From assembly GCA_025350865.1 (NCBI GenBank), contig JANXWZ010000182.1, positions 1 to 48,134 on the forward strand: a DNA stretch of 48,134 nt, written 5' to 3'. Under the pieces are notes generated by a model that searched no databases, was not told where the DNA came from, and saw only the letters and a program-made list of their open reading frames with translations. Position 1 is the first letter of the stretch. Every line of letters starts with the position of its first letter. The DNA is from Rhodanobacteraceae bacterium (lineage in GTDB: Bacteria > Acidobacteriota > Terriglobia > Terriglobales > Acidobacteriaceae). The translations under genes were made by a program, and so were the position numbers. Positions 26,356 to 45,583 of this stretch are shown piece by piece.

Positions 26356-27387
26356 ATGAGTTTGAATCTAAGTTCGGTGACGCGGCCGCATCGGCGGTAT
26401 AACCCCTTGCGGCGGCAGTGGGTGTTGGTTTCTCCGCAGCGTACGGCGCGGCCGTGGCAGGGGCAGACCACCAAGCCGGTAGCGGCCGAGCGAGTGGCAT
26501 ACGATCCAAACTGCTATTTGTGCCCAGGGAATCCCCGTGCTGGCGGTGCGCAGACGCCGGAATACGATGGGGTATACGCGTTCGATAACGACTATCCAGC
26601 CTTGTTGGCGGATGAGGTAGAGTTGCCGGCTACCTCGCCGGGAAGCCTCCTGATAGCCGAGGCGGAGGTTGGCCGGTGCCGGGTCATCTGCTTCGATCCG
26701 GATCACAGCCTCACGTTGTCGCAGATGCCGGTCGAGTCGATTGGCCGTGTGACCGAGTGCTGGAAGAGCGAGACGGAGATGCTGGGGGCGGACCCGTCGA
26801 TTGATTATGTGCAAATTTTCGAGAATCGCGGGGCGATGATGGGGTCGAGCAATCCGCACCCCCATTGCCAGGTGTGGGCGACGGGCCATGTTCCGGATGA
26901 GCCGGCGGCCGAGGGTGCCGCGCAGCTGGACTACTTCACCGCGAATGGGCGGACTTTGCTGAGTGATTATCTCGCTCAGGAGGTTGGCGGCGAGCGCGAG
27001 GTCTGCGGCAATGATGAGTTTGTGGCGGTGGTGCCGTATTGGGCGGTATGGCCGTTTGAAACGTTGATTCTGCCCCGAAACACCGTCGGCAGCTTTGTGG
27101 ATTTCTCGGCGGCGCTGACTGCCGGGCTTGCGGACATCCTGAAGCGGATGACGACGCGCTACGACAATCTCTTTCAGGTGAGCTTTCCCTATACGATGGG
27201 GTTTCACCAGCGTCCGACGGACGGCAAGCCGCATCCGGAGTGGACGTTTCATGCACACTTCTTCCCGCCGCTCCTGCGGTCGGCAGAGATACGAAAGTTT
27301 ATGGTGGGGTTCGAGATGCTGGGGATGCCGCAGCGGGATATCACGCCGGAGAAAGCAGCGGAGATGTTGCGGGGGTGTGCGGAGTAG
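26356..27387 (+). CDS. galT: galactose-1-phosphate uridylyltransferase
   Basis: GalT swaps UDP between UDP-glucose and galactose 1-phosphate in the Leloir pathway. The sequence has CYLCPGN with zinc-type Cys53 and Cys56, and NPHPHCQVW in which His170 is the nucleophile that becomes uridylylated. The C-terminal PEWTFHAHFFPPLLRS is also typical. The length of 343 is normal. There is no clear ribosome binding site before the ATG. The 216-nt gap to galM has no gene and includes a fragment of the dispersed repeat (26313-26341). Confidence 0.95.
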   Translation: MSLNLSSVTRPHRRYNPLRRQWVLVSPQRTARPWQGQTTKPVAAERVAYDPNCYLCPGNPRAGGAQTPEYDGVYAFDNDYPALLADEVELPATSPGSLLIAEAEVGRCRVICFDPDHSLTLSQMPVESIGRVTECWKSETEMLGADPSIDYVQIFENRGAMMGSSNPHPHCQVWATGHVPDEPAAEGAAQLDYFTANGRTLLSDYLAQEVGGEREVCGNDEFVAVVPYWAVWPFETLILPRNTVGSFVDFSAALTAGLADILKRMTTRYDNLFQVSFPYTMGFHQRPTDGKPHPEWTFHAHFFPPLLRSAEIRKFMVGFEMLGMPQRDITPEKAAEMLRGCAE

Positions 27388-27454
27388 TCCAGATGCAACG
27401 GCGTACGCAAGGTTCGCGGTGGAAAGGCTGCAAAGTTCGCAAAGGTGAGAGTGG

Positions 27455-28597
27455 ATGACGGCACGGGTGCAGGAATTGTTGGAGCGGCATGGGCGGGCGG
27501 CGGCGGTGTATCAGGCGCCGGGCCGCGTGAACCTGCTGGGCGAGCACACCGACTACAGCGGCGGGTTCTGCATGCCCGCAGCGCTGAGTTTCAATACGCT
27601 CGTCGCTGCCTCGCCGCGCTCCGATTCGCTGTTGCGAATGCATTCGGTGGACTTTGGCGAGTGGGCCGAGGTGAACCTGCGGAACCTGCAGGTTCCCGCC
27701 AAGGACGCGCCGACCAAGTGGAACTTTTATTGCGAGGGCGTGGCCTGGAGCCTGGCGCAGGAGACGGGAATTGCGCTCAAGGGCGCTGACCTTACGATTA
27801 CGGGGAATGTTCCGCTTGGCGCCGGCTTAAGCTCTTCGGCGTCAGTCGAGGTGGCCGTTGCGACGGCATTGCTCGGGATAGCGGGCCAGACGCTGCCCAA
27901 GGCTACGGTGGCCCTGGCTTGTCAGCGGGCCGAGAACGGCTATGTCCACGGGTCGTGCGGGATTATGGACCAGTACATCTCGGCCTGCGGGGTGAAGGGC
28001 AACGCACTGGCGATCGACACGCGCGCCATGACCGCGGAACTTGCGCCGATTCCAGAAGACCTGCGGCTGGTGGTCTGCAACTCGATGGTGACGCACAAGG
28101 TTGCGGGAGCGGAGAGCGATTACGCGATTGTGCGGCGCGAGGTGGAAGAGGCGGCCCACGCGATGGGGCGGCAACTGCGCGATGTTTCGTTAGACGAGCT
28201 TGTTGCGGCCCGCAACACGATGTCCGATGAGGCGTTTCATCGCGGGCGTCACGTGATTACCGATAGCGCTCGTGTGGTTCGCGGAGTGGCTCTGCTAAAG
28301 GCCAACGATTCCGCTGCATTTGGTCGCCTGATGACCGAGGCTCATGCAAGCTTTCGCGACGACTTTGGGGCCAGCTGCAAGGAATGCGATCTGCTTGTCG
28401 AGATGGCACTGGAGCTTGAGGGCTGCCTCGGCTCGCGGCTGACCGGCGGAGGGTTCGGCGGATGTACTGTTTCGCTGGTGAAGGCGGATGCGGCAAGCGC
28501 GTTCGCGGAGACACTTCAGGCGGAGTACAAGTCGGCTACCGGTGTGGTGGCGCAGGTATTTATCTGTGAGATTGCGGATGGAGCTGGCAAGGTATGA
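27455..28597 (+). CDS. galK: galactokinase
   Basis: GalK phosphorylates galactose at C1 with ATP (GHMP family). The N-terminal signature GRVNLLGEHTDYSGG, the ATP loop PLGAGLSSSASVEVA and the C-terminal GGGFGGCTVSLV are all present, with 380 residues in total. The ATG follows AAAGGTGAG with 5 nt spacing. It starts 67 nt after galT, and its stop overlaps the next start (ATGA), so translational coupling to mak is expected. Confidence 0.95.
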   Translation: MTARVQELLERHGRAAAVYQAPGRVNLLGEHTDYSGGFCMPAALSFNTLVAASPRSDSLLRMHSVDFGEWAEVNLRNLQVPAKDAPTKWNFYCEGVAWSLAQETGIALKGADLTITGNVPLGAGLSSSASVEVAVATALLGIAGQTLPKATVALACQRAENGYVHGSCGIMDQYISACGVKGNALAIDTRAMTAELAPIPEDLRLVVCNSMVTHKVAGAESDYAIVRREVEEAAHAMGRQLRDVSLDELVAARNTMSDEAFHRGRHVITDSARVVRGVALLKANDSAAFGRLMTEAHASFRDDFGASCKECDLLVEMALELEGCLGSRLTGGGFGGCTVSLVKADAASAFAETLQAEYKSATGVVAQVFICEIADGAGKV

Positions 28598-29490
28598 GGA
28601 TTGGCATCGATCTGGGTGGCACAAAGATAGAGGCTCTGGCGTTGGACGATGCCGGGCTGGAGATTGCGCGGCATCGCATGGATACTCCGCGCGGCGACTA
28701 CGATGGCACTGTCGCTGCCATCGCAGGGCTGGTAGCACGGATCGAGCGTGAAACCGGTATGACCGGAACCGTCGGGGCCGGCATTCCGGGCAGCCTGCGG
28801 GCCAACGGTCTGGTGAAGAACGCCAACTCCACATGGCTGAATGGACGGCCGTTTGGTGAGGATCTGAGCCGCGCGATGGGCCGAGAAGTTCGCGTGCAGA
28901 ACGATGCGAATTGCCTCGCAGTGTCTGAGGCGACCGATGGCGCCGCCGCCGGCAAAGGTGTCGTGTTCGCCGTGATTCTGGGGACTGGATGCGGCGGGGG
29001 CGTAGCCCTCAGCGGCCATGTCCACAAGGGTCCGAACGGCGTAGGCGGAGAGTGGGGGCACATCCCACTGCCGTGGGCCAAACCGGAGGAATTGCCGGGC
29101 CCCGCCTGCTACTGCGGCTTGAGTGGCTGCATGGAGGTTTGGACTTCCGGAACCGGCTTGTCGATGGACTACAACGCTGTCACCGGGAAGAATCTGACGA
29201 CGCGAGAGATTGCCGTTCTAGAGGCGGCGGGCGATCCGGAGGCGGTGGCAGCGTTCGACCGTTTCGTGGATCGGCTGGGACGCGGGTTGGCGGTCATCGT
29301 GAACTCGCTGGACCCGGATGTGATCGTGTTTGGCGGCGGCGTCTCGCGTTGGGACAGGCTTTACCGCGACCTGCCGGCGAAGATTCGGCCGTATGTGTTT
29401 GGAGGCGACTTCGATACGCCGCTTGTGCAGGCCATGTACGGGGATTCGAGTGGCGTTCGCGGCGCGGCGTGGCTGTGGCCCGCTGGGTAG
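28594..29490 (+). CDS. mak: ROK-family fructokinase (Mak-like)
   Basis: A sugar kinase of the ROK family. MRIGIDLGGTKIEALALDD is the phosphate-binding start; VKNANSTWLNGRPF, NDANCLAVSEATDGAAAGKG, GTGCGGGVAL and the zinc motif CYCGLSGCMEVW follow, and the end GDSSGVRGAAWLWP is nearly as I remember it in E. coli Mak (manno(fructo)kinase). The ATG overlaps the galK stop by 4 nt. Why a fructokinase-like enzyme is tied to the Leloir genes is not obvious; it may act on glucose or fructose freed from galactosides. It ends 3 nt before the convergent nucleotidyltransferase gene. Confidence 0.9.
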   Translation: MRIGIDLGGTKIEALALDDAGLEIARHRMDTPRGDYDGTVAAIAGLVARIERETGMTGTVGAGIPGSLRANGLVKNANSTWLNGRPFGEDLSRAMGREVRVQNDANCLAVSEATDGAAAGKGVVFAVILGTGCGGGVALSGHVHKGPNGVGGEWGHIPLPWAKPEELPGPACYCGLSGCMEVWTSGTGLSMDYNAVTGKNLTTREIAVLEAAGDPEAVAAFDRFVDRLGRGLAVIVNSLDPDVIVFGGGVSRWDRLYRDLPAKIRPYVFGGDFDTPLVQAMYGDSSGVRGAAWLWPAG

Positions 29491-29493: not shown

Positions 29494-30699
29494 CTAGTCT
29501 TCCACGCTATGGTGGCGCGGCAGCATCAGGATGCCAAGCACCGGGTAGAACCAGAAAAGCTGATCGGGCAGATCGACCGCGGCCCAGACGCGCGGACGCC
29601 ACACGAAGCGGCTCGCGATCTCGGCCAGGGAGCGGAAGCCGGGGACCAGATCGATCTCCAACCGCAGCCATTGCGCAGGGCTGGCATAGCTGCGGTCTGG
29701 CTTGAAGTTCTGGCGGAGCAGCATCGACGTAGTTCGCTCGCGGATGCGGCTCGCGAGCGGCTCGTCGACACCCAGTAGCCGAGGGTTGGCGATCCCGGTA
29801 CCCATCCAGTCGTTAGCCAGATGAATTGCGGCGCTGATCTGCGGCAGCAGGCCGAGCCCGGCTGCCCGGGCCAGCGCGTCGTCCAGCTCCTGCGGCGTAA
29901 ACAAACGAAGAAAGCCAGCGACGTCAGCCAGGCTCTTGAGGTAGGTGAACGCGTCCAGCACCCCGTGCGTCGCGATGTAGAGGAACTGATCCTGCATCGA
30001 GAAGGTGCGCATGGGAACGCCGAAGCAGGTCAATGTCTCGAAGTTCGACTGGCCGTTCGCCGGGTTGAGAATCAGGTTGGCAGGGTGGAAGCGGTTATTG
30101 AAGAGCCGCCAGTGCAGGTCGAGCTCAAACCCTGAACCCGCGCTTTGAAACGTGAAATCCTTCCAGAAGCTGACGTACGAAGCGATGCGATGCGGGGTCA
30201 GCCGGCTGCGTGGATTGATGAGGTTGTAGCCCAGATCGCTCAAGATGGCGATCTGCTCCGGGAGCAGGCTAGGCTCGGTAAGGATGTCGATGTCGCCAAC
30301 GTGCCGCGTGTTTGGGTTGCCAAAGAGTGCCTGCGAGAGCGGAACGCCTTTGAGCACGCTGAATTCGATTCCGGCGGCAGCGAAGGCGCTTGAGATGCGG
30401 CGTACTTCGTTTGCCGACCGCAGGGCCTCGAAGGCATTGTGCCGGGCGCGGTGCTGGAGCTCGTCATACACAGCCTGCGGCAGGCCTTCAGGTCTGGTCC
30501 GCTCCAGCGACTCGAAGACGAGAGAGCTGACCCGGTGGTGCGCGGTGACGGCCAGAAATTGGCTCCAGTCCAGTGCGGCGTTGGCCGGATATTCGGCGGT
30601 CAGCTCATGGATCTGCTGGATCTCAGAGTCGCGCAGACGCGATCGCGCAGTAAGCAGCATGAGTTGGACGTGACCGGGAAAATCTCGGAACGTAAGCAT
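29494..30699 (-). CDS. PF14907-type nucleotidyltransferase of lasso-peptide cluster
   Basis: The protein has about 401 residues. The segment FSVLKGVPLSQALF followed by TRHVGDIDIL is the signature of the uncharacterised nucleotidyltransferase family PF14907 (GS-like loop with DxD: Asp-Ile-Asp). Later blocks FELDLHWRLF and YIATHG support this. Family members are frequent in lasso-peptide clusters of Proteobacteria and Acidobacteria, where a tailoring role is suspected but, to my knowledge, not generally proven. I chose ATG 30699; a GTG lies two codons earlier. The gene is divergent from the B2 gene, with about 150 nt between starts that must contain both promoters. Confidence 0.82.
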   Translation of the reverse strand: MLTFRDFPGHVQLMLLTARSRLRDSEIQQIHELTAEYPANAALDWSQFLAVTAHHRVSSLVFESLERTRPEGLPQAVYDELQHRARHNAFEALRSANEVRRISSAFAAAGIEFSVLKGVPLSQALFGNPNTRHVGDIDILTEPSLLPEQIAILSDLGYNLINPRSRLTPHRIASYVSFWKDFTFQSAGSGFELDLHWRLFNNRFHPANLILNPANGQSNFETLTCFGVPMRTFSMQDQFLYIATHGVLDAFTYLKSLADVAGFLRLFTPQELDDALARAAGLGLLPQISAAIHLANDWMGTGIANPRLLGVDEPLASRIRERTTSMLLRQNFKPDRSYASPAQWLRLEIDLVPGFRSLAEIASRFVWRPRVWAAVDLPDQLFWFYPVLGILMLPRHHSVED

Positions 30700-30853
30700 G
30701 GGCACACCGGTTGGACTGCGGAACGTTAGAATCGGAGCATCGGTTTGAGCATACCGGCAACTCCTATGGAATCACAATTATATGTGTCGGGCGTCGGTGT
30801 AACAGATTTTAAACGGCAGTATCCGTTGTGGGATGTTGTAGATAGGCGTTGCC

Positions 30854-31291
30854 GTGCGTAAGTGGCGGAAGGCGAAAAGCCTGTTGCGGCGAGTCCGCGA
30901 GGTGGGCCCAGGTGGGCTGGCGTCGCTGCTCGAAGCGTTCGGTTGGCTGGCTGTGGCGAAGATGGCGCTGGCATGGATTCCTGTTGCAAAGGTTATCGGC
31001 TGGAAGCGGAGGGAGCTTGAGCGGAGCCCGGTCGCAGACGCCCACATGCTGCGCGAGGTCAGACATGCCGTGCTTGTAGTCGCCCGATATTCGCCCGTAA
31101 GTTTCGTCTGTTTTCCGCAATGTCTGGCTGCAAGTGAGATGCTGCGGCGCCGCGGAATCGCAAGCCGCCTCCACTACGGCGTCGCCAGAGATGGGAATAA
31201 GCTGGTGACGCATACCTGGCTGGAGGCTGGCGGAGAAACTGTGATCGGCGGCGAAGTGGCTGGGGAGTACTCGCGGTTGGAAAGCTGGTAG
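30854..31291 (+). CDS. lasso peptide leader peptidase (B2, transglutaminase-like)
   Basis: A 145-residue protein of the B2 family (PF13471), which cuts the leader from the lasso precursor. The catalytic Cys is Cys90 in FPQCLAASEMLRRRG, and the catalytic His is His120 in VTHTWLEAGG, followed by VIGGEVAGEYSRL as in many B2 proteins. The N-terminal 60 residues are basic and partly hydrophobic. The start is GTG at 30854 with AGG upstream. The recognition partner B1 is separate (36815-37093), so this is a split B1/B2 system. The exporter gene starts 13 nt later on the same strand. Confidence 0.88.
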   Translation: MRKWRKAKSLLRRVREVGPGGLASLLEAFGWLAVAKMALAWIPVAKVIGWKRRELERSPVADAHMLREVRHAVLVVARYSPVSFVCFPQCLAASEMLRRRGIASRLHYGVARDGNKLVTHTWLEAGGETVIGGEVAGEYSRLESW

Positions 31292-31304: not shown

Positions 31305-33053
31305 TTGACGTCGCTTAAGACATTCGTGGGGTTGCTGTGGCGGTCGGCGCGGTGGCAACTGGTCGGCGCGGTGGCGCTCAGCACGCTGCTGTCGCTCACC
31401 GAGGGCGTCAGCCTGGTGATGGTCTTTCCGCTGATCGCGCTGCTGGGCGGCGGAACGTCCGACGCCACCGCGGGGCCTCGCACGCAGATGCTATTCCATA
31501 CGCTAGCGGCGGCCCACATTCCACGATCCGCATGGCTGGGAGCCGCGCTGGTCGTGGTCATCCTGAGCGTGGGTCTGCTGACGGTGCTGAATGGAATGCT
31601 TTCGACGCTGACCATCGACATCATTCTGCCGCTGCGCAAACGGCTTGCGGGGCAGATCTACGAGGCGATTCTTCATGCCGACTGGACCTTCGTCATGCGC
31701 CGCCGCTCGTCCGACCTGACCCACTACCTGACCACCGAGATGGCCCGCGTCGGCACGCTGGCCGGCAGCCTGATCGCGCTGCTCTCGAACGGCATGGTCG
31801 GCGCTCTGATGCTTGGCCTGGCCTGTTATTACGCTCCGCTGCTGACGCTGCTGCTGCTGGGCTGTTTTGCCCTGCTGATCCCCTGGCAGCGGCGCTCCGG
31901 CAAGGCAATTTACAACGCGGGGCGTGAGACCTCGAACAAGATGGGCAAGGTCTTCGAGTCGTCGATGGAGCGGCTGCAGAACCTGAAAGTGGTGAAGGCC
32001 TACGGCGCTCAGGATGCCGAACTGGAGCTGTTCACACGGCGCTACGGCGAACTGATTCGTGAATTGGTGGTCAATGAGTGGCGCAGCGTGGCGGCCTCGC
32101 GGCGATTCCAGATGGTGTCGCTGGTGCTGCTTTGCGGACTTATCCTGCTGGGCTTGAACACGCTGCACCTTGCTCCGGCGGCGATGCTGGTGTTCCTGTT
32201 TGCGTTCGTCAGGGCTACGCCGCGGCTGAATGCGGTGCAGACAAAGATGAACGAGATCTTGACGGATCTGCCGGCGTTCACCCGGATCGAGGCGTTTTTG
32301 CAGGAATGCGCGAAGAATTCGGAGGCCGGAGAGGGTGACGCTGCCGCTCCGCCACTGACGCGGGAACTGCGACTGCGAGATGTTCAGTTTGCGTATGCGG
32401 CAGGCTCACCGGTGGTGCTGGACGGCTTGAGCCTGGAGTTCGAGGCTGGGAAAGTTACCGCCGTGGCAGGCTTGTCGGGTGCGGGTAAGAGTACGGTAGC
32501 CGATTTGGTGATGGGTCTGCTTCTGCCGGATTCTGGCCGTGTCGAGGCGGATGGCGTGGCGATTACGCGGTCGAATGCGAGGGCGTGGCGGCGTCGCGTC
32601 GGATACGTCAGCCAGGACACGCTGCTGTTTCACGATTCCATTCGAGCGAATCTGCTTTGGGCCAAGCCCGGTGCGACCGATGCGGAGTTGAGCGCCGCGA
32701 TCACGGCAGCCAGCGCCGACTTTGTCTACAGTCTGGGGCAGGGGGTCGAGACCGTCGTGGGCGATCGCGGAATGATGCTCTCGCACGGGCAGCGGCAGCG
32801 CATTGCCTTGGCTCGCGCTCTCCTGCTGCAACCTTCCTTGCTGATTCTGGATGAGGCTACCAACTCCCTCGATCTGGACAATGAGGAAAGCATTTTGAAG
32901 GTGGTGAAGGGGCTGGGGGTCACCACGATTCTGATCTCACACCGGCCAAGTGCGGTGGTGGTGGCGGATCGGGCATTTGTGCTCGAAAAGGGTCTAGTGA
33001 AGGTCAGCGGCAAGTGGGAAGCAGTACGGGCAGAGGTCCTCGCGCAGGAGTAA
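31305..33053 (+). CDS. ABC exporter (lasso peptide D protein)
   Basis: A half-transporter with fused membrane and nucleotide-binding domains, 582 residues. About six hydrophobic helices occupy residues 10-305, and the ATPase domain has Walker A GLSGAGKST (389-397), Q-loop YVSQDTLLF, signature LSHGQRQRIALARALL, Walker B LLILDEATNSLD and the switch His in ISHRPS. In lasso clusters this protein exports the product and gives self-immunity. No peptidase C39 domain is present, in keeping with a separate B protein. The start is TTG at 31305 after GAAGAGG. It is translationally close to the B2 gene. Confidence 0.9.
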   Translation: MTSLKTFVGLLWRSARWQLVGAVALSTLLSLTEGVSLVMVFPLIALLGGGTSDATAGPRTQMLFHTLAAAHIPRSAWLGAALVVVILSVGLLTVLNGMLSTLTIDIILPLRKRLAGQIYEAILHADWTFVMRRRSSDLTHYLTTEMARVGTLAGSLIALLSNGMVGALMLGLACYYAPLLTLLLLGCFALLIPWQRRSGKAIYNAGRETSNKMGKVFESSMERLQNLKVVKAYGAQDAELELFTRRYGELIRELVVNEWRSVAASRRFQMVSLVLLCGLILLGLNTLHLAPAAMLVFLFAFVRATPRLNAVQTKMNEILTDLPAFTRIEAFLQECAKNSEAGEGDAAAPPLTRELRLRDVQFAYAAGSPVVLDGLSLEFEAGKVTAVAGLSGAGKSTVADLVMGLLLPDSGRVEADGVAITRSNARAWRRRVGYVSQDTLLFHDSIRANLLWAKPGATDAELSAAITAASADFVYSLGQGVETVVGDRGMMLSHGQRQRIALARALLLQPSLLILDEATNSLDLDNEESILKVVKGLGVTTILISHRPSAVVVADRAFVLEKGLVKVSGKWEAVRAEVLAQE

Positions 33054-33322: not shown

Positions 33323-35245
33323 CTACCCCCCCCCGGCTGGGGGTCCGTCGGAGCTGCGCAGCATGTACCCGAGCGCCACGCCACGGGTGAGGGCGTAGTT
33401 CCAGGAGTCCATAATCTGGGGTAGCTCGTGGCCTTCTGCAGGCCAGGTGTCGGTCAGTTTCTTCAAACGCTCGATGTCAAGAAAATGACGCGCAGCCGGG
33501 CTCTGTTCAATGACTGGAATCTCGGCGCGGAGCTCGGGCAGGGCTTCGGCGAGCGTCAGGTACCAGTCCGCGCCCTGTTGGCCCCGAACGTTCCGGGCCA
33601 ATGTAGACGCAGGCAGACGATCCTTCATGGCTCGGCGCACCAGCGAGCGGGACTGCGATTGCGCGGCGTACTGCTCAATAGGGATGGAGAAGCAGAACTC
33701 AAAGATGCGCTTGTCACCCATCGGGTCACGGTTCTCGAGCCCGAAACGGGCGGCAATGGCAGCGTTGAGCGGCGCGGGGTCGAAGCGCTCAAAGAATTTG
33801 GCCCGCTGCGTCCGGATGCTGGGCAGGTTGCCGTGGCGTTTCTGGAACGCCTTCTCAACCAGGTCGTACTCCTCGACGATGCCGGGGTTTACCGGGCTGT
33901 AGTCGAGATTGAGGTGTCTGGCTCCGGGCTTGATCTTCAATTTCAACCACCGCGGCATCAGGCCGTTGGTGGCTAGGACCGCCGAGGCTTTGAAGCTAAG
34001 CTCGCCGCGATTGCGCAGATTGTTGGCGAATTCGAATAATTTGACCCAATGGCCGGTGCGGAACCATGTCGTCATCGCCTCCCAGCCGTCGGCCGAGATG
34101 GTGGCGTTGCCGGACAGGCCGTGCAGCATCACGCCCGCGCCTCGGCTCTGGGCATCGCGCATGATAGCCGACATCCAGAGCAGGTTGACGCAGTTCTGGG
34201 CAGGCTCGTCCATCGCGTCGGTCCAGGCCTTCATGTCGGCCAGTAGGTCGTAACCGGCAGAATCGATAAGGACATGGTCGACGTTGGGGTACATCGCACA
34301 AACGTCGGCAGCGCCTGGCCCTTCCTCGAAGAGCCGGCCCGGAATTCCCTTACCTAGGAATCCTTTGCGAGGGACCGACGTGTAAGCAGTCAGGCCGCGC
34401 CCTTGCGGAGCCAGAATTCGAGCCGCAGTCGCGACTACCGAAGAACTGTCCATGCCGGCGCTGAGTTGCGCGCTGATGCCTTTGGGCGAACGAAGGCGGG
34501 CGGCGGTAGACTTGTCGAAAATTTCGAGGAGCGCGTCGACATAGTCCTGATCGCGTTTGTAGCGGATCGGCTTGCCCTCGACGGGGTGCCAGTAGGGCTT
34601 GCACTCGAAGCTGGTCGGGGTGACCCGCACGAGGTGGCCAAGTGGTACGCGGGAGATACCTTCGTAGTAGCTGGAGTTCCAATCCGGATGCGTCAGGACG
34701 AGAGCGTCCACCAGGCGCTGGCTATTAAAACCACGGTAAACACCGGGGATTGCAAGCAAACCCTTGGGCATCGAGGCCAAGGCAGTGAGGTCTTTGCCGC
34801 GATGATAAAAAAGCGGACGCTCACCTACGTGGTCGCGGGCGGCGAACAGGATTTGCTTTTGGGGCTGCCACACAATGAAGGCAAAGCCGCCGATGATGTG
34901 GTCGAGGCAAGACTCTCCCCAACGCTCCCACGCGCTCATCAAAATGGCGGAGTCGGCAAGTTCTTCCGGGTGTTCAAGCGACAGGTCGCGCGCAAGGTCC
35001 GCTCGATTGTCAAGCCGGACATCGGCGACCAGACAGGCCGAGCGGTCATTTGTCCAGAGAGGTTGCTGATCGAAGAAATCTTCGGGCAGCATGTGAGTCA
35101 GCATCCCGCCGAGGGCTACGGCACCGTCATCGGCGATGAAGCGGCGTAGTCCGCCATGGATCGCCAGAGCACTGAGCGTGAAGTCGACCATCGTTCGTGC
35201 TGACGGTTCGCTTGCTTTAGCCCAGACGGCGCTGATTGCGGACAT
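33323..35245 (-). CDS. lasso cyclase (asparagine-synthetase-like C protein)
   Basis: A 640-residue homologue of asparagine synthetase B. Residues about 1-220 follow the glutaminase domain fold (SAWERWGESCLDHIIGGFAFIVW, ARDHVGERPLFYH), but the protein starts MSAIS without the nucleophilic Cys2, so ammonia release from glutamine is not expected. The ATP-pyrophosphatase loop is SAGMDSS (262-268). This combination is typical of lasso cyclases, which adenylate an Asp or Glu side chain and close the macrolactam with the core N-terminus. The C-terminus ends in Gly-Gly-Gly encoded by an uninterrupted run of nine G just before the stop. The precursor gene lies 211 nt upstream on the same strand. Confidence 0.88.
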   Translation of the reverse strand: MSAISAVWAKASEPSARTMVDFTLSALAIHGGLRRFIADDGAVALGGMLTHMLPEDFFDQQPLWTNDRSACLVADVRLDNRADLARDLSLEHPEELADSAILMSAWERWGESCLDHIIGGFAFIVWQPQKQILFAARDHVGERPLFYHRGKDLTALASMPKGLLAIPGVYRGFNSQRLVDALVLTHPDWNSSYYEGISRVPLGHLVRVTPTSFECKPYWHPVEGKPIRYKRDQDYVDALLEIFDKSTAARLRSPKGISAQLSAGMDSSSVVATAARILAPQGRGLTAYTSVPRKGFLGKGIPGRLFEEGPGAADVCAMYPNVDHVLIDSAGYDLLADMKAWTDAMDEPAQNCVNLLWMSAIMRDAQSRGAGVMLHGLSGNATISADGWEAMTTWFRTGHWVKLFEFANNLRNRGELSFKASAVLATNGLMPRWLKLKIKPGARHLNLDYSPVNPGIVEEYDLVEKAFQKRHGNLPSIRTQRAKFFERFDPAPLNAAIAARFGLENRDPMGDKRIFEFCFSIPIEQYAAQSQSRSLVRRAMKDRLPASTLARNVRGQQGADWYLTLAEALPELRAEIPVIEQSPAARHFLDIERLKKLTDTWPAEGHELPQIMDSWNYALTRGVALGYMLRSSDGPPAGGG

Positions 35246-35456
35246 AAGTTGGAAATTCGAACAGGGGCCTTGCTTATCTCTTTGCTGACCGGCACCGACC
35301 TGCCGGCCAGCGGAATGCTGGTGGAACTGAAAGTACGATTGCGGGCAAATGCGGCGTGAAACCCATACCCGCAGGGGAGATCGCTAGGGTAGGGTAAGCA
35401 TACTCGGCTCTGGCGCCAGAACGCGAATGCGGAACTTCAAGAGGCTCGAACGACGA

Positions 35457-35570
35457 TTACGAGCGGTGTTCTGCTCCGCCCTGGTCGGTCGAAGATACGT
35501 GGTAGTACTTGGCGAGGTTGATGGACGTTACGTCGATGGTCGGCTTGGTCCAGATCTTTGGGGTAGTCAT
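35457..35570 (-). CDS. candidate lasso precursor peptide (37 aa)
   Basis: A 37-codon ORF too short for standard gene calling. GGAGGG lies 9 nt before its ATG, and a promoter lies 22 nt further upstream. The leader contains KIWTKPTI, a W-x-x-P-x-I/L arrangement equivalent to the Y-x-x-P-x-L motif bound by lasso RRE domains. Residues 22-37 run from YYHVSSTD to QGGAEHRS. Asp29 would give an 8-residue ring if Tyr22 is core residue 1, or 7 if Tyr23 is. There is no Gly1 and no Thr at -2, so the cleavage site is uncertain. The last residue is Ser, the site that kinases of this type phosphorylate in paeninodin-like systems. It is on the same strand as the cyclase and divergent from the kinase. The identification is inferred from position, signals and motif. 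Confidence 0.72.
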   Translation of the reverse strand: MTTPKIWTKPTIDVTSINLAKYYHVSSTDQGGAEHRS

Positions 35571-35591
35571 TGGGTGGTCCCTCCTGCCGTG

Positions 35592-35621
35592 AGTATACAG
35601 GGGTAGAGACGCTTCCGACAA
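35592..35621 (-). promoter_or_regulatory. promoter of the candidate lasso precursor gene
   Basis: On the minus strand TTGTCG (35621-35616, 4 of 6 to consensus) and TATACT (35597-35592, 5 of 6) are separated by 18 nt. The predicted start of transcription is a few bases before the GGAGGG ribosome binding site. On the opposite strand a lone TATACT at 35734-35739 may serve the kinase, without a good -35 partner. Confidence 0.55.
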
Positions 35622-35771
35622 TGGTTTTTTGGTTACAGGCAGAAAAATCCTAGAGAACGATTTAACAAGGCTGCCCGTAGATTGGTCCGTCAGAACGGCG
35701 GAGCGAAGCGAACTTTGTCCTCCGGAACGGTACTATACTTGTGCGAGAGATGACAAGGGGATACGCGAAAA

Positions 35772-36731
35772 ATGTTGGGAATTAGTACCGCAGCGCGTAT
35801 TTCCGAAGAAAAACCCGCTAAAAACACATATTTCTTCGGTCCCTTTCGCCTGGAATCCGAATTTGAGATCCCAGAGTTGAAGGGTTGTGCAGGCCTTGGA
35901 ACGATCCCGGTCGACATCCGCATTGGTGGCGTTCCACTCGACGTGGACGGTGCCACTTACGGCAAATTCTGCCGGGTTTCAGCAACCGAATATTTGCTGG
36001 ATATTCCACATGTAGCCCGATTTTACGTCGCAAACGGCTCCCTTGTTTGCATGGAACCCGCTCCGGATGCCCCTGCCGCCGATATTTCAACCTACCTGCT
36101 GGGATCGGTTTTCGGGGCTTTGTGCCACCAGAACGGGCTGCTCCCGCTGCATGCGAGCTCTGTGCGGGTGGGGGACGGCGTTACCGCGTTTCTAGGCGAT
36201 TCCGGCGCCGGAAAGTCGACGATGGCGGCCTGCTTACAAGGGCGCGGATACGCAATTGCCTCGGACGATATCTGTTTGTTATCCGATGAGGCAGGTGAGA
36301 TGCGGGTGATTCCGGTAGCGGGGTGGTTGAAGCTCTGGCGAGCTAGTCTGGATCACCTGGGCGAGACGCCCGAGGAGCGCAACCGGGTTTATAGCGAGGA
36401 CGACAAGTATCGGTTGTACCTGGAGGCGCAGACCGGCGAGCGGCCGGTGTTGCGAAACCTGGTGTTCCTGGAAAAGGCCGGCGATGGTAAGGCGAGGCTC
36501 GAGCCGCTATCGGTGCCGGAGACACTGGCTCGGATGATGCAGCTCACTTACCTGGGTTACATTACGGAACTGACGGGGAGCCATGCACAGGTGTTTGGGC
36601 AGTGCGCACATGTACTCAAAGAAGCGAACGGGTACCGGCTGGTGGTGCCGTGGGGTTTCGAGGAGATGGATGGAGTATTGCGGGTGGTGGAGGATTTGTT
36701 GAACCCCACCTCAAACAGTGGGGCCGTTTGA
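35772..36731 (+). CDS. HPr-kinase-like lasso precursor kinase
   Basis: A 319-residue protein with a C-terminal HPr kinase/phosphorylase-like fold: P-loop LGDSGAGKST (residues 141-150), preceded by LLPLHASSV, and followed by YAIASDDICLL. The N-terminal 100 residues lack the true HPrK N-domain. Proteins of this shape in lasso clusters (ThcoK/PadeK type) phosphorylate the C-terminal Ser of the precursor, and the candidate precursor here ends in Ser. It starts divergently from the precursor gene. Its 3' end runs into a dispersed repeat copy, so its last residues (NPTSNSGAV) may be repeat-derived. Confidence 0.85.
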   Translation: MLGISTAARISEEKPAKNTYFFGPFRLESEFEIPELKGCAGLGTIPVDIRIGGVPLDVDGATYGKFCRVSATEYLLDIPHVARFYVANGSLVCMEPAPDAPAADISTYLLGSVFGALCHQNGLLPLHASSVRVGDGVTAFLGDSGAGKSTMAACLQGRGYAIASDDICLLSDEAGEMRVIPVAGWLKLWRASLDHLGETPEERNRVYSEDDKYRLYLEAQTGERPVLRNLVFLEKAGDGKARLEPLSVPETLARMMQLTYLGYITELTGSHAQVFGQCAHVLKEANGYRLVVPWGFEEMDGVLRVVEDLLNPTSNSGAV

Positions 36732-36814: not shown

Positions 36815-37093
36815 CTACTGGAGTTCGATGAGGCCGCGATCGAGCATCTGTTCGAGGAGTTCGACGACATCCTGTTCGATCACGCCAGGGGCCGCTGAGT
36901 AGGTCTCTGAGAGAGAAGCTACGAGGGCGTCGAGGTGGGTCGGTGTGGCGAGCAGACGCCAGACGTCGGAGCCAGTTTCGCCCAGTCCGAGGCATTCGCC
37001 CGTATCCAGCGTCATCAACACAACTTCCGAGCCGACGGTAGTTTCAACAGGCTTGCTGCTCCGCACGATGGTGACTTGCTTGTCGATTCTCAT
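36815..37093 (-). CDS. PqqD-like RRE protein (lasso B1)
   Basis: A 92-residue PqqD-family protein. In split lasso systems this RRE domain binds the precursor leader and delivers it to the B2 peptidase and the cyclase. The pattern of an N-terminal beta-hairpin (VETTVGSEVVLMTLDTGECLGLGETGSDVW) and helical C-terminus (VIEQDVVELLEQMLDRGLI) fits the family. The open frame starts at TTG 37105, but ATG 37093 is more likely. It is convergent with the kinase and is the last cluster gene; the pectin esterase that follows is on the same strand, 40 nt upstream. Confidence 0.85.
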   Translation of the reverse strand: MRIDKQVTIVRSSKPVETTVGSEVVLMTLDTGECLGLGETGSDVWRLLATPTHLDALVASLSETYSAAPGVIEQDVVELLEQMLDRGLIELQ

Positions 37094-37140
37094 AGCCTTC
37101 AACAATCAAACCACTTGTTGCGGATTGGGACAAGTTTCGG

Positions 37141-38507: not shown

Positions 38508-38594
38508 TCGAGTCCGGTGCACCAAACGGCGAAAGCAGTCGACGCGAAGTTGTGTCCGCAAGACGGTAGGATCGGAACGAAAAGGATGAGCAGA

Positions 38595-41405
38595 ATGGGA
38601 TTGATGACAGTGAAGCGGGTGCAAGGACTTTTGGCCGTAGCGGCTTGCGCGGGATTGACTGGTGCGGCACTGTGCCAGGCGGCGAAGCCTGCGGATTCGA
38701 TTGCGGCACTGCGCGCGGGTTTTGCCAATCCACCGGATGCGGCGAAGCCGATGGTGCGCTGGTGGTGGTTCGGGCCGGCGGTGGTGAAGCCGGAGATTTT
38801 GAAAGAACTGCAACAGATGAAGGCGGCGGGGATTGGCGGTGCGGAGCTGGCGTTTGTGTACGCCGAGGTGCTCGACGATCCTGCGAAGGGATTGAAGAAC
38901 CTCAGCTTTCTATCGCCAGAGATGCTGGACGATGTGCGATATGCGCAGGAGGAAGGGCGCAAGCTGGGGCTGCGGATCGACGTGACGCTGTGTAGCGGAT
39001 GGCCGTACGGCGGGCCGGCGACGACGCTCGATCAGGCCGTGACGCGGCTGCGGACGTCGGAGGTTGCGGTGGCTCCGGGAGCGACTGCGGTGGAGACGCC
39101 AAAGCTGGCTGAGGGTGAGAGCCTTTTGTCTGCAATGGTGGTCGATGGAGCCGTTACACCGAAGCCAGTGCGGGGGACATCTCCGCCTGTGGCGACGTGG
39201 GCTGCAGGGACGGCCAAGGGGTTGACGGTGACGGGTGAGAATGCGGCCCTAGCGGTTTCGGATAAGCCGCGGGTGGCGTTGTTCTTCATCCAGAGCCATA
39301 CGAGGCAGGAGGTGAAGCGGTCTGCTGTTGGGGCGGAGGGGTATGTGCTGGACCCGTTCTCGAAGCAGGCCGTGGCGACGCACTTGAAGAGCGTGGGCGA
39401 GCCGCTGGTGAAGGCGTTTGGAAATACGCCACCGTATGCGATCTTTTCTGATTCGCTGGAGGCGTATGGCGCGGATTGGACTCCGCTGCTGCCGCAGGAG
39501 TTCAAGAAGCGACGCGGGTATGACCTGATGCCGCACTTGGCCGAGCTGGTTGGGGGTGGGTCGGCTGCGGCGGATAAGGTTCGGCATGACTATGGGCGAA
39601 CGCTGACGGAGCTAGTAAACGAGAACTACCTGACGCAGATCAATGACTGGGCCAAGGCGCATGGGACGAAGTTCCGCTCGCAGACCTACGGTGAGCCGGC
39701 GGTGAACTTCACATCGCAGAGCCTGGTGAGCCTGCCGGAGGGTGAAGGCCCGCAGTGGCGGCAGTTCTCGACGCTGCGTTGGGCTACCAGCGCAAATCAT
39801 GTGTTTGGAAATAATGTGACCAGCGGCGAGACATTTACCTGGCTGCACTCACCGGTATTCCGGGCTACTCCGCTGGATATGAAGGCGGAGGCGGATATTG
39901 ATTTCATCATGGGTGAGAACCAGCTGATTTATCACGGCTGGCCTTACTCGCCGCCGGATGGCCAGGTGCCGGAGCCAGGGTGGAGCTTGTATGCTGCGGC
40001 TAGTTTCAACGCGCATAACCCGTGGTTCCCAGTGGAAGGCGCCGTGAATAAATATATTGCCCGGTTGAGTTACTTGATGCGACAGGGTAAGCCGGCGAAT
40101 CAGGTCGCCATCCTGCTGCCGGAGGATGATGCGTGGGCTAGCTTCTCGCCCGGACATACTACGTTGACCGGGGCGCTGGCGAAGCTGGTTACGCCGGAGC
40201 TGATGTCGACGATCTTGTCGGCGGGGTACAACGTGGATTTTATCGATGCGGATGCGATCGATAAGGTCGGGCTGGGGACGCACCAGGTGGTGGTGATTCC
40301 GCCTACGGATCGGATTCCGGTGGGGACGCTTCAGAAACTGGATGCATGGGTAAAGGCGGGCGGGAAGGTGGTCTCTGTAGGGAAAGCGCCGACGATGGAC
40401 GCGGAGGGTAAGACTTCTCCTGAACTAGCGCAGTTGCTGAAGATGCTGCCCTATGTTGTGGACAATGAGAATTTGTCGAGGGCTTTGGTGGAGGAGACTA
40501 AGCCCGATTTGGTGCTTGTGGATGCGGATAGTAAGACGAAGGAAGCGATTGGGTTTATTCATCGTAAGTTTTCGGATGGAGACATTTATTACGTCATAAA
40601 CACCAGTAATCAGGCAATTAGAACTCGCGCTCGCTTCAGGACTATCCACAATCACGGTCAACGGTGGAATGCCGATACCGGAGAGATTGTAGTTGGACCG
40701 GCGAATCCGGGCGGCGTCGACCTGGATCTAGATCCTTACGAATCTCGCCTGTTTGTGCTGACTGGGACCGGTATTGTTGACAACACTTGGCATGAAGCAC
40801 CGCCCAAATTGGTGGCGGACCTGACGACTGGCTGGAAAGTGTCGTTCACCTCCACCGCCAAGGCCGAGACTCAGCAGACGCTGACGGATTGGATCACGAA
40901 TGCTGATACCCTGCACTATTCCGGTGAAGCGGTGTATTCCAAAGAGTTCAAGCTAGACCGGAAGACGGGGTCTGTGTCGATCGAAATAACTAGCGGTGAA
41001 GCACTGCCTCTGCCGCGCAGGCCGGGGGAGGATCGGCCAGTGTTGGCCAACGGCCTGCCTGATCCGCGGATAACGCGGACGGGGCCGGGAATGCATGCTT
41101 ACTACGAGCCGCCGATTCGAGAGGCTGCGCTTGTGGTGGTGAATGGGCAGGCAGCGGGGGCGTTGTGGCATCCGCCTTATCGGCTGAGCGTGTCGAAGTA
41201 TCTGAAGGCTGGGGAGAATCATATTGAGATTCATGTGTTCAATACGGCTTTGAATGCGTGGTCGGCGCTGCCTCCGCATGACTTCAAGCCTCTCATTGCG
41301 AAGTATGGGGATAAGTTCCAGATGCAGGATATGGACCAGGTGAAACCTATTAGTTCGGGAATTCTGGGGACGATCAGGTTGGTGGAAATTGAAGTTGGGA
41401 AATGA
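38595..41405 (+). CDS. GH106-type alpha-L-rhamnosidase-like glycosyl hydrolase
   Basis: A 936-residue exported protein. After the signal peptide (VQGLLAVAACAGLTGAALC) comes MVRWWWFGPAVVKPEILKEL and MKAAGIGGAELAF, the opening of the PF17132 hydrolases that include GH106 alpha-L-rhamnosidases. The DVTLCSGWPYGGP block and the SDSLEAYGADWTPLL block are also typical. The C-terminal third is beta-rich, with a jelly-roll end (LVVVNGQAAGALWHPPYRLSV). I chose ATG 38595, 8 nt after AAAGGA; the open frame begins at 38517. A role in removing rhamnose from RG-I fits the neighbours. Confidence 0.88.
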   Translation: MGLMTVKRVQGLLAVAACAGLTGAALCQAAKPADSIAALRAGFANPPDAAKPMVRWWWFGPAVVKPEILKELQQMKAAGIGGAELAFVYAEVLDDPAKGLKNLSFLSPEMLDDVRYAQEEGRKLGLRIDVTLCSGWPYGGPATTLDQAVTRLRTSEVAVAPGATAVETPKLAEGESLLSAMVVDGAVTPKPVRGTSPPVATWAAGTAKGLTVTGENAALAVSDKPRVALFFIQSHTRQEVKRSAVGAEGYVLDPFSKQAVATHLKSVGEPLVKAFGNTPPYAIFSDSLEAYGADWTPLLPQEFKKRRGYDLMPHLAELVGGGSAAADKVRHDYGRTLTELVNENYLTQINDWAKAHGTKFRSQTYGEPAVNFTSQSLVSLPEGEGPQWRQFSTLRWATSANHVFGNNVTSGETFTWLHSPVFRATPLDMKAEADIDFIMGENQLIYHGWPYSPPDGQVPEPGWSLYAAASFNAHNPWFPVEGAVNKYIARLSYLMRQGKPANQVAILLPEDDAWASFSPGHTTLTGALAKLVTPELMSTILSAGYNVDFIDADAIDKVGLGTHQVVVIPPTDRIPVGTLQKLDAWVKAGGKVVSVGKAPTMDAEGKTSPELAQLLKMLPYVVDNENLSRALVEETKPDLVLVDADSKTKEAIGFIHRKFSDGDIYYVINTSNQAIRTRARFRTIHNHGQRWNADTGEIVVGPANPGGVDLDLDPYESRLFVLTGTGIVDNTWHEAPPKLVADLTTGWKVSFTSTAKAETQQTLTDWITNADTLHYSGEAVYSKEFKLDRKTGSVSIEITSGEALPLPRRPGEDRPVLANGLPDPRITRTGPGMHAYYEPPIREAALVVVNGQAAGALWHPPYRLSVSKYLKAGENHIEIHVFNTALNAWSALPPHDFKPLIAKYGDKFQMQDMDQVKPISSGILGTIRLVEIEVGK

Positions 41406-41424
41406 GAAGGCTCAATTGAGCTTG

Positions 41425-41540
41425 TCCATTCCCCTTCATCGCGATAGTGCTGCGATGAATGGGGCTCCCGGCAGTGGTGTAGGACAAACAACGGCATGAT
41501 TTATGAGCTATCAGCTATTTAGCTGACAGCTAGGAGCTCT
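41425..41540. repeat. dispersed intergenic repeat, copy D
   Basis: This copy has CCTTCATCGCGAT, GCTGCGATGAATGGGGCTCC and a second part AACAACGGCATGATTTATGAG followed by AGCTATCAGCT and AGCTGACAGCT. The second part recurs in copies E and F. It fills the gap between the GH106 and GH105 genes. Confidence 0.6.
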
Positions 41541-41559
41541 AAGTACTGAGAGGGATTTC

Positions 41560-42768
41560 ATGAAGGTTTTGATTTTTGCTTTGGTTGGGTTGGTTCCGGT
41601 GGCGGCGCAGGAGTATCCGAAGCCTACGCCGGTGATGCAGGCGCAGATCGATAAGGACAATGGGCGCGGGTTTGGGGATTCGCCGGCTGACCCTGGGCCG
41701 CTGGCGAAGGACTTGTCGTCTGCGCTGAAGGTTGCAGATGTCGATAAGGCGATGCGGAAGGTGGCGGATTGGGAGTTGCCGCGGGTGGTGGCGCATGGGG
41801 ATCAGATATGGACTTCGAGCGTGGACTATGTCGGAATGATGGCCGCATCGAAGGCGACCGGCGATGCGAAGTATCGGGATGCCATGTTTGGGCTGGCGCA
41901 GAAGTTCGACTGGAAACCGCGCGGGAAGGGTGCGAATGCGGACGACCAGAGCGTGGGGCAGATGTATCTGGAGCTGTATTTGGCGGAACCGAAAGACAAG
42001 CTTGATGCGCATTGGATCGAAGCGGAGCGGACGGCGATGGATGCGGTGATTGGGATTCAGAAGGGTGTCGATGCCGGGGTGGAGACGGCTACGGACAAGC
42101 AGGTGCGAATTCCGTGGTGGTGGTGCGATGCGCTGTTTATGGCTCCTACGGCATGGGCGCAGATGACGGAGGCTACTGGGGACAAGAGGTATGTCGACTA
42201 TATTCACTCGCAGTGGCGTGCTACTTACGACTTACTTTGGAATAAAGAGGAACACTTATACGCTCGGGACGCGACTTACAAGACCAAGACGGAGGCCAAT
42301 GGGAAGCTGATGTTCTGGTCTCGCGGCGAAGGCTGGGTGATGGGCGGGATTGCGCGGACGGTGGACAATCTGCCGAAGGGTGATCCGGAGATTCCGTTCT
42401 ATGTCGGGCAGTTGAACGAGATGGCGGCTAAGGCGAAATCGATCCAAGGGGCGGATGGGTTGTGGCACGCGGGGCTGCTCGATCCGGAACATTATGCGCT
42501 GCCGGAGATTTCGGGGTCGGCGCTGATGACGTTTGGGATTGCGTGGGGAATCAACCACGGGTATCTGGATGCGAAGGTTTATCGGCCGGTCGTGGAGAAG
42601 GCGTGGAAGGGGATGCTGGGGCATGTGTATGCCGATGGTCGGCTGGGGTGCATTCAGCAGACAGGGGCGGAGCCAGCGTTTTACTATCCTTCGTCGAGTT
42701 ATGACTATGGGATTGGCGGGTTTTTGCTGGCGGGGTCTGAGGTTAGGAAATTGGCGGCCAAAAAGTAA
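41560..42768 (+). CDS. GH105 unsaturated rhamnogalacturonyl hydrolase
   Basis: GH105 enzymes remove the 4,5-unsaturated galacturonosyl residue left by rhamnogalacturonan lyases. The signal peptide (MKVLIFALVGLVPVAAQ) indicates export. An (alpha/alpha)6 barrel is supported by the repeated helical pattern and family motifs NADDQSVGQMYLELYL, PWWWCDALFMAPTAWAQ, FWSRGEGWVMGG and SSYDYGIGGFLLAG. The total is 402 residues. The ATG follows GAGAGG. It sits between GH106 and a second esterase on the same strand, so one pectin operon is likely, although repeats lie in the gaps. Confidence 0.9.
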   Translation: MKVLIFALVGLVPVAAQEYPKPTPVMQAQIDKDNGRGFGDSPADPGPLAKDLSSALKVADVDKAMRKVADWELPRVVAHGDQIWTSSVDYVGMMAASKATGDAKYRDAMFGLAQKFDWKPRGKGANADDQSVGQMYLELYLAEPKDKLDAHWIEAERTAMDAVIGIQKGVDAGVETATDKQVRIPWWWCDALFMAPTAWAQMTEATGDKRYVDYIHSQWRATYDLLWNKEEHLYARDATYKTKTEANGKLMFWSRGEGWVMGGIARTVDNLPKGDPEIPFYVGQLNEMAAKAKSIQGADGLWHAGLLDPEHYALPEISGSALMTFGIAWGINHGYLDAKVYRPVVEKAWKGMLGHVYADGRLGCIQQTGAEPAFYYPSSSYDYGIGGFLLAGSEVRKLAAKK

Positions 42769-42780
42769 AGCGACCTCAGA

Positions 42781-42902
42781 TTTCACGGATAAAGACGGAT
42801 TAGGACAAACAACGACTACGAATTATGAGCTATTCAGCTAAGAGCTGTCGGCTTGAAAAAGGCAAATACGGAGATTCTGACTTCGTCAGAATGACAGCGA
42901 TA
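42781..42902. repeat. dispersed intergenic repeat, copy E
   Basis: A short TTTCACGGATAAAGACGGAT piece of the long palindrome family is followed by AACAACGACTACGAATTATG, AGCTATTCAGCTAAGAGCTG and GGCAAATACGGAGATTCTGA. These parts recur in copies C, D and F. Confidence 0.55.
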
Positions 42903-42927
42903 TATGCGGTGGTGTTTGGAGGTTGAG

Positions 42928-43791
42928 ATGAAGGCAATTTGGTTAGGTTTCATGTTGGCGGCTGGGTCGGCTGTGGCGCAGGTGCAGCCGGCTCAGGTTC
43001 CTAGTCCCACTGACCCGGGAACGACGACGCGCCCGGCGTTGCCGGTGCCGAAGGATCCCAAGCTGCCGAGCCTGATCCTGGTAGGGGATTCTACGGTAAG
43101 GAATGGCAGGGGCGATGGTGGACAGGGTCAGTGGGGTTGGGGCGAGCCTCTGGTAGCTTACTTCGATCCGGCAAAGATCAATGTGGTGAATCGGGCCATC
43201 GGAGGACGGTCTAGCAAAAGCTATGTGTCGGAGGGGGAGTGGGAGAAGACGCTCACCTTCATCAAGCCGGGCGATGTGGTGCTGTTTCAGTGGGGTCACA
43301 ACGACGGCGGCAAGCCGGATGAGCCGACGCGGACCCGGGCGTCGTTGCCGGGGACGGGGGAGGAGACGGTGGAGATCGACAATCTGATCCTGAAGAAGCA
43401 TGAGGTGGTGCATACCTATGGCTGGTATCTGCGGAAGTATGTGGTGGATACGAAGGCAAAGGGGGCTACGGCGATCATCTGTTCGCTAATACCCCGCAAG
43501 ATCTGGAAGGACGGTAAGGTCGCCCGGAATGGCAAAGACTATGCCGGGTGGACTCGCGAGGTGGCGGAGGCGGAACATGTCGGGTTCATCGATTTGAATA
43601 ATCTGATTGCGAACCGGTACGACAAACTGGGCGAGGCGGCGGTGGAGCCGTTGTTTGCCGACCCGCATACGCATACTTCGTGGGATGGCGCGGTCATCAA
43701 CGCGGAAGAGGTTGTGGTCGGACTGAAGCTGCTGAAGGTTGATCCGGTGGCGGGGGACTTTTCGGAGAAGGGTACGGCGGTAAAGCCTTAA
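42928..43791 (+). CDS. secreted rhamnogalacturonan acetylesterase (CE12 type)
   Basis: A 287-residue exported SGNH esterase. The signal peptide is MKAIWLGFMLAAGSAVAQ. The nucleophile block is LILVGDSTVRNG, followed by NRAIGGRSSKSY, FQWGHNDGG and DPHTHTSWDGA with the catalytic Asp/His. The arrangement matches YesT/RhgT-like rhamnogalacturonan acetylesterases. I chose ATG 42928 because GGAGG lies 5 nt upstream; the open frame begins at 42904. It is a second esterase of this type in the locus, with a different architecture from the gene at 37141. Confidence 0.88.
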   Translation: MKAIWLGFMLAAGSAVAQVQPAQVPSPTDPGTTTRPALPVPKDPKLPSLILVGDSTVRNGRGDGGQGQWGWGEPLVAYFDPAKINVVNRAIGGRSSKSYVSEGEWEKTLTFIKPGDVVLFQWGHNDGGKPDEPTRTRASLPGTGEETVEIDNLILKKHEVVHTYGWYLRKYVVDTKAKGATAIICSLIPRKIWKDGKVARNGKDYAGWTREVAEAEHVGFIDLNNLIANRYDKLGEAAVEPLFADPHTHTSWDGAVINAEEVVVGLKLLKVDPVAGDFSEKGTAVKP

Positions 43792-43799
43792 TACAAAGA

Positions 43800-43872
43800 C
43801 AAAGCGACCACGGATTTCATGGATAAACACGGATGGATCCGTGCTCTTTCCGTGAAATCCGTGGTTACTTTG
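43800..43872. terminator. long palindrome between esterase and rhaM genes
   Basis: Arms of 20 nt (43800-43819 and 43853-43872) pair at 18 of 20 positions around CGACCACGGATTTC, with an inner hairpin CACGGAT-GG-ATCCGTG. It lies between two converging stops, so a bidirectional terminator is plausible, though no long T tract follows. It is closely related to the element at 22475-22547. Confidence 0.6.
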
Positions 43873-43879
43873 TTTATTG

Positions 43880-44197: not shown

Positions 44198-44208
44198 CTG
44201 TGCGCCCC

Positions 44209-45381: not shown

Positions 45382-45424
45382 TCGAGCTGGCTCCGAAGGC
45401 TTGTGGATTGGTGGGGCGCGGTCC

Positions 45425-45454: not shown

Positions 45455-45583
45455 ATATAGTCTCTAATGGATCAGGAGGCGTCGCTACCGGTTTGGTGAC
45501 TTTGTTCTCCCTCTACTTTCGCATGAGTGTGTTCGCAGTACGCCTTGGGGCGCGCTGCCGCACAATCTCTTTGACAATGGGCA

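Follow-up and report, generated by a model that had tools for sequence, protein, structure and literature searches.

A conserved 37-residue open reading frame as the very probable precursor of a kinase-associated lasso peptide with predicted Ala at leader position -2

We analyzed a 48,134-nucleotide stretch of DNA (contig JANXWZ010000182.1), which is referred to in its entirety as the window. The genes and features considered here are the following, with the strand in brackets.

29494..30705 (-): nucleotidyltransferase N (NTP_transf_5; PF14907, E 2.3e-48)
30854..31291 (+): B2 leader peptidase (Transglut_core3; NF033537 above cut-off, E 7.1e-18)
31305..33053 (+): ABC exporter D (PF00005, PF00664)
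33323..35245 (-): lasso cyclase C, asparagine-synthase-like (PF00733 above cut-off)
35457..35570 (-): precursor gene A, 37 amino acids and TAA stop (identical peptide in contig L031; homologues adjoin homologous cyclases)
35460..35507 (-): predicted core YYHVSSTDQGGAEHRS, Tyr22 to Ser37, with a Tyr1-Asp8 ring (from the register of 32 precursors)
35484-35486 (-): codon of Asp29, the predicted ring acceptor
35508..35570 (-): predicted leader, residues 1 to 21, with W7 at -15, P10 at -12, I12 at -10, A20 at -2 and K21 at -1 (family register, PbaA numbering)
35579..35584 (-): Shine-Dalgarno sequence GGAGGG (read directly; 8 nt 5' of the ATG; retained in L031)
35592..35621 (-): promoter-like TTGTCG-18-TATACT (by consensus match only)
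35772..36731 (+): HprK-like precursor kinase K (TIGR04352, E 5.9e-07, below cut-off; motif complete)
36815..37105 (-): B1, a PqqD-like RRE with Cys38 at the position of PadeB1 Tyr38 (PF05402 above cut-off, E 4.6e-17; alignments)

Judged by sequence, B1, the kinase, A, the cyclase, the transporter, B2 and the nucleotidyltransferase constitute a lasso peptide cluster of the paeninodin/Bsf type. Among the features of lasso clusters, an asparagine-synthase-like cyclase, a transglutaminase-like B2 peptidase, an RRE and, from the predicted core start, an acidic residue (Asp/Glu) at core positions 7 to 9 were found, and Ala20 stands in place of Thr at leader position -2. Among those of the paeninodin family, the locus has a WxxPxL-type motif at -15 in the predicted register, an HprK-like kinase with weak profile scores and a C-terminal Ser. 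The curated NCBIfam cut-offs were passed by B2 and missed by the cyclase (NF033535, E 3.1e-84, 283.8 bits, cut-off 525), B1 (NF033536, E 8.3e-14) and the kinase. One Cys and one His column were invariant across the 15 rows of the B2 alignment.

An earlier sequence-only reading of this DNA had proposed that an unlisted 37-codon open reading frame (ORF) is the likely lasso precursor, and this proposal held. The peptide read directly from positions 35457-35570 is MTTPKIWTKPTIDVTSINLAKYYHVSSTDQGGAEHRS; the W7-x-x-P10-x-I12 motif, the C-terminal Ser, the GGAGGG site and the promoter-like sequence to which that reading had pointed are all present. A close relative of the cluster, from a second species and with the same order and strands of K, A, C and D, was found in the bog metagenome contig CAJCHO010000088.1 (L031), whose cyclase shares 85-86% identity with that of the window. 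The two precursors are identical at 37/37 residues, and their genes differ at 7 of 114 nucleotides, all seven at third codon positions and synonymous, in the midst of diverging flanks. In the two remaining same-strand frames these differences would change 7 and 6 residues, and in the three opposite-strand frames 6, 2 and 7. By this comparison the ORF is under purifying selection and is a genuine gene. A 1-nt indel relative to L031 lies between the Shine-Dalgarno sequence and the ATG at 35570, and we therefore prefer this ATG to an upstream TTG start. Positions 35200-35800 contained one sigma-70-like site, the promoter-like sequence, where shuffled sequence had 0.2 on average (sd 0.6); L031 retains the -10 element and has TTGTGG as -35 element with a spacer of 17. 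The -10 element and the Shine-Dalgarno sequence are 7 nt apart (35585-35591); if this promoter is used, the 5' end of the mRNA would fall near the Shine-Dalgarno sequence and leave almost no 5' untranslated region. The record title of L031 reads Mycobacteriaceae, yet the contig holds a close relative of an acidobacterial cluster and may be a mislabeled bin.

Conservation next to homologous cyclases, which had been suggested as a check, was observed in Acidobacteriaceae and in some Alphaproteobacteria, and the ORF is very probably a conserved lasso precursor. Near-full-length cyclase homologues occur in the genus and family of the window (Granulicella and Acidobacteriaceae among them) and in the wider class, and further ones in Ancylobacter, a Caulobacteraceae metagenome-assembled genome and other genomes of their two orders. 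At strict cut-offs, the cyclase was detected in 36 of the 398 family genomes (E 1e-60) and in 17 of the 399 genomes from the class (E 1e-80); in the two other orders, 4 of 297 and 3 of 249 genomes had it (E 1e-90). From these low tallies, its distribution is patchy. A precursor profile built from 20 seed precursors was used to search 7661 small ORFs taken from 46 loci. It matched at E < 1 in 30 loci and had no match in the other 16; some of these loci are represented twice, and because many of them had also served to train the profile, the search is no independent test. Loci outside the seeds that matched at E < 1e-5 were L101, L116 and L126. The ORF matched no model of Pfam or NCBIfam, and NF033524 (paeninodin family) did not match it at E values up to 10. 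That model scored 57.7 bits for a Priestia member of the paeninodin family and 22.0 bits, against a cut-off of 27, for L114; none of the seven family precursors scanned besides Priestia reached an NCBIfam cut-off. Some loci carry more than one precursor. Ancylobacter rudongensis (L037) has three in succession 3' of one cyclase (3352-3444, 3905-3994 and 4311-4400), with Thr(-2), a C-terminal Ser and a predicted core no longer than 13-14 residues, and L034 has two in tandem ahead of one cyclase (8471-8569 and 8785-8889), both with a GxxxGxxxD ring and lacking a C-terminal Ser despite the presence of a kinase.

The start of the core was predicted from 32 precursors with the Trp motif, hand-picked from motif matches and including close relatives. 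Thirteen residues after the Trp (W+13), 23 of them have Ala, 3 have Thr and 6 have Leu or Ile, and these six have Thr one residue later. When core starts from W+11 to W+19 were compared, W+15 and W+16 each placed an Asp or Glu at position 7-9 in 31/32 precursors, and W+15 alone gave a conserved residue at -2; when every precursor is read in the register that suits it, Asp or Glu stands at 7, 8 or 9 in 32/32. Thr(-2) is the usual, although not universal, residue of lasso leaders, that of PadeA included. W+13 is therefore most likely position -2 and W+15 the core start (W+16 in the six exceptions). In the Priestia precursor, Thr is likewise found at W+13, and Gly is the second core residue in the accepted register, as in paeninodin, whose core has a computed mass that agrees with the published m/z of 1209.5. 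Applied to the window, the register most likely gives a core from Tyr22 to Ser37 closed by a Tyr1-Asp8 ring, and the absence of Gly1 and Thr(-2) noted by the sequence-only reading is borne out as Tyr1 and Ala20. The same reading had counted rings of 7 or 8 residues to Asp29, from Tyr23 or Tyr22, of which the latter fits the family better; it had omitted the ring of 9 from Lys21. Asp29 is, as it had stated, the only Asp of the C-terminal half, to which Glu34 adds a second acidic residue; a ring closed there would leave a tail of three residues. One of its two alternatives, a leader shorter than usual, does not hold, since Trp(-15), Pro(-12) and Ile(-10) have the spacing W-15, P-12 and L-10 given for PbaA in the available part of a structural study (PMC13381572). 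The fusilassin spacing (-17) on which that alternative was based was rejected: if the core started at His24, as it requires, Asp29 would come no later than position 6, and the conserved W+13 column fits -15.

A core start one residue later is possible and, in our estimation, unlikely. B2 would then cut after Tyr22 to give the core YHVSSTDQGGAEHRS, with a 7-residue Tyr1-Asp7 ring and the motif Trp at -16. The acceptor count at W+16 agrees with this start, the residue found there (Gly in 13/32, Ala in 7/32) is nearer to known first residues, and the Ancylobacter precursors together with G306 and G329 need the Trp at -16 to bring Thr to -2. Against it, position -2 would vary widely (E 15, T 6, Q 4, K 2, R 2, L 2 and A 1), the Ala/Thr column at W+13 would be left without a role, and the three precursors with Thr at W+13 as well as the Priestia and PbaA registers favor -15. 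The first residue of the window core would be Tyr even so.

With the start at Tyr22 and its equivalents, the first residues predicted in 33 clusters are diverse: Gly, Ala, Asn, Thr and Ser (4 each), Tyr, His and Leu (3 each), and Ile, Val, Phe and Asp (1 each). On a cyclase tree of 31 rows, position 1 requires at least 19 changes and position -2 only 5; position 1 is thus free to vary, with Tyr1 as one example. Two precursors from a different genus (G197 and G128) are likewise predicted to begin with Tyr. A literature search, mostly of open-access text, found no natural Tyr1 lasso peptide. The first residue of fusilassin is Trp. First residues observed earlier include Gly, Cys, Ser and Ala, to which metanodin added Asn (PMC12670498, in its accessible text), and the fusilassin enzymes tolerate changes at position 1 in vitro, according to the text available of PMC10885120. 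By eye, we also found Thr(-2) precursors of other Acidobacteriota with a predicted Lys or Arg in first place (L047, 11273-11389; L063, 11643-11762; L050, 10889-10999; and L051, 2269-2382), and unusual first residues are thus not limited to the precursor family described here.

Position -2 has known exceptions. In the accessible portion of PMC10368454, Ile(-2) is demonstrated by experiment, Ile/Val(-2) is reported in Acidobacteriaceae, predicted Ala(-2) precursors are cited as already mentioned in print, and an Ile(-2)Ala exchange in Bsf abolished cleavage, which counts against our reading of the window. For two precursors from soil metagenomes, the available text of PMC9064862 proposes Leu and Ser at this position. 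What our sequence comparison adds is an Ala(-2) variant of kinase-associated lasso precursors, mostly with Cys38 in B1. Cys38 of the window B1 corresponds to Tyr38 of PadeB1 by the spacing of Y38, N40 and W49, and Trp49 is also present in the window B1. Column 38 may be that of FusE Tyr33. In the part of PMC5067487 that is accessible, PadeB1 Y38A bound the leader normally and supported very little or no PadeB2 cleavage.

The 33 clusters comprise 18 with Ala(-2) and Cys38, 8 with Ala(-2) and Tyr38, 7 with Thr(-2) and Tyr38, and none with Thr(-2) and Cys38. In Fisher's tests of RRE columns against -2 (535 tests, uncorrected), the p values were 0.0004 for Phe83, 0.0008 for Ser46 and 0.0015 for Cys38, and by MI/H with the -2 residue column 38 came first (0.294 vs 0.282 and 0.252 for columns 83 and 46; 33 pairs). 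Five well-supported independent pairs on the cyclase tree differ in Cys38, a number with which a sign test cannot reach 0.05; the leader differed in the same way in 2.4 of them on average, in the opposite way in none, and did not differ in 2.6. With fewer rows 3.5 of 5 pairs agreed, so the extra rows weakened the association. The Ala(-2)/Cys38 covariation is thus no more than suggestive, and shared ancestry could explain it; the simplest reading would be that Tyr38 accompanies Ala or Thr at -2 and Cys38 only Ala. Cys is not the sole replacement of Tyr38 because Val, Phe, Ile and Leu also occur, the first three in B1 proteins without a recognized precursor. Leu83 of the window B1 aligns with Phe83 of PbaB1, which splits the leader cleft (PMC13381572, accessible text), and is found in 18/26 Ala(-2) and 0/7 Thr(-2) clusters, the same counts as Cys38.

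B1 and precursor lie on different contigs in 10 of the 33 pairs, and the B1 of G235 is about 42 kb away; in genomes with several B1s, the best-scoring or in-cluster one was used. The G166 precursor begins at a contig end, with its Trp outside, and Thr(-2) of six canonical outgroups in the cyclase-tree test was read by eye. Left out of the pairs were G541/L178 (two B1s, Cys and Leu), L180 (Tyr motif, Phe38), L184 (unclear register, Tyr38), L181-L183 (longer spacing, Tyr38), loci without a complete B1 (L195 and L118, none assigned; G430, truncated where the contig ends; G004 and G056, none found) and loci without a recognized precursor (L038, Val38; L106, Phe38; L194, Ile38; and L117, L120, L124, L127, L128 and L130, all Tyr38). 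We advance only tentatively, and at somewhat less than even odds, that B1-B2 cleavage has been rewired by exchanges of Thr(-2) for Ala and of RRE Tyr38 for Cys, which would leave B2 with hardly any restriction on the first core residue, so that rings could begin with Tyr, His, Asn, Thr or Val. A search of the open-access literature for exchanges of RRE Tyr38 returned nothing.

The kinase motif of the window (H127, G142, G145, G147, K148, S149, D165 and D166) has the spacing of the BsfK motif from H148 to D187. The available text of the respective studies gives the C-terminal Ser as target of PadeK (PMC9266682) and Ser3 as target of BsfK (PMC10368454). A C-terminal Ser is present in 25/32 precursors (28/33 in the overlapping cluster set), and a kinase accompanies 5 of the 7 precursors that lack it, so the phosphorylation site may differ between members. 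The window precursor ends in HRS, and its C-terminal Ser is therefore the likelier site; the lasso peptide is probably phosphorylated.

Comparison with known systems, as described in the accessible parts of the papers cited, places the window among the kinase-associated lasso clusters. The Bsf cluster of Bradymonas sediminis (PMC10368454) has the same genes (A, B1, B2, C, D, HprK-like K and N), likewise a residue other than Thr at -2, and the equally spaced kinase motif H-G-G-G-K-S-D-D. It has Ile(-2), Y(-17), a Gly1-Asp8 ring, phosphorylation at Ser3 and a C-terminal Asp, whereas the window has Ala(-2), W(-15), a predicted Tyr1 and a C-terminal Ser. With the paeninodin-like clusters (PadeA/PbaA; PMC5067487, PMC13381572 and PMC9266682), the window shares WxxPx[LI] at -15/-12/-10, a discrete B1, an HprK-like kinase, an NTP transferase and the C-terminal Ser, the phosphorylation site there; these clusters have Thr(-2) (Priestia member) and Tyr38 in B1, in contrast to Ala(-2) and Cys38. 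Metanodin (PMC12670498) also has a noncanonical first residue (Asn1, supported by mass spectrometry; Tyr, predicted, in the window) and a precursor missed by antiSMASH, but differs in Thr(-2) and its classical proteobacterial ABC cluster. Of the earlier suggestion of a new lasso subclass, a variant thus stands, namely the Ala(-2) group with Cys38 in 18/26 clusters, within the paeninodin/Bsf kind.

We assign a probability of about 0.77 to the reading that the ORF encodes precursor A and that the product is a kinase-associated lasso peptide, cut after Lys21, closed between Tyr22 and Asp29, with a threaded tail and a phosphorylated C-terminal Ser. It builds on the selection on the ORF, the content of the cluster and the family register, from which we infer the cleavage, ring, threading, phosphorylation site, export and role of N. 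B1 would bind the leader through W(-15)xxP(-12)xI(-10), and K would probably act on the precursor by phosphorylating its C-terminal Ser. B1 would present the leader to B2 for cleavage after Lys21, with Ala20 replacing Thr at -2; C would join the amine of Tyr22 to Asp29, forming an 8-residue ring through which the tail QGGAEHRS is threaded; and D would export the product, whose phosphate N may decorate.

A linear phosphorylated product resembling the LPP RiPPs is very improbable. The available text of PMC13381572 reports an RRE, an HprK-like kinase, an NTP transferase and an exporter of the same kinds for LPP, together with signal peptidase cleavage, Y(-16) and phosphorylation at Ser3; the genes expressed there (A, K, B, S, D and N) are without cyclase or B2, both of which are in the window, where the precursor adjoins C and has W instead of Y, and acidic residues at 7-9 in all 32 cores in their own registers also speak against it. 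That this frame arose by chance and another site encodes the true precursor, to which the lack of a family match might point, is scarcely credible in view of the synonymous-only divergence, the same site next to the cyclase and the family motif.

The precursor family breaks two common search rules, a Gly-like first residue and Thr(-2), and the curated NCBIfam models miss most of the members scanned, that of the window included. Should rings with Tyr1 or His1 form, natural lasso peptides would have more varied N termini. The Ala(-2)/Cys38 pairing bears on how the RRE helps to form the B2 specificity pocket, a role that the accessible text of PMC10368454 describes, where Ile(-2) is concerned, as largely enigmatic. 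By Pfam, the lasso cluster is flanked by galactose genes (aldose epimerase, galT, galK and a ROK kinase) at 25111-29490 and by a rhamnose/pectin set (GH106, GH88, a GDSL esterase, rhaM and RhaT) at 38517-46881.
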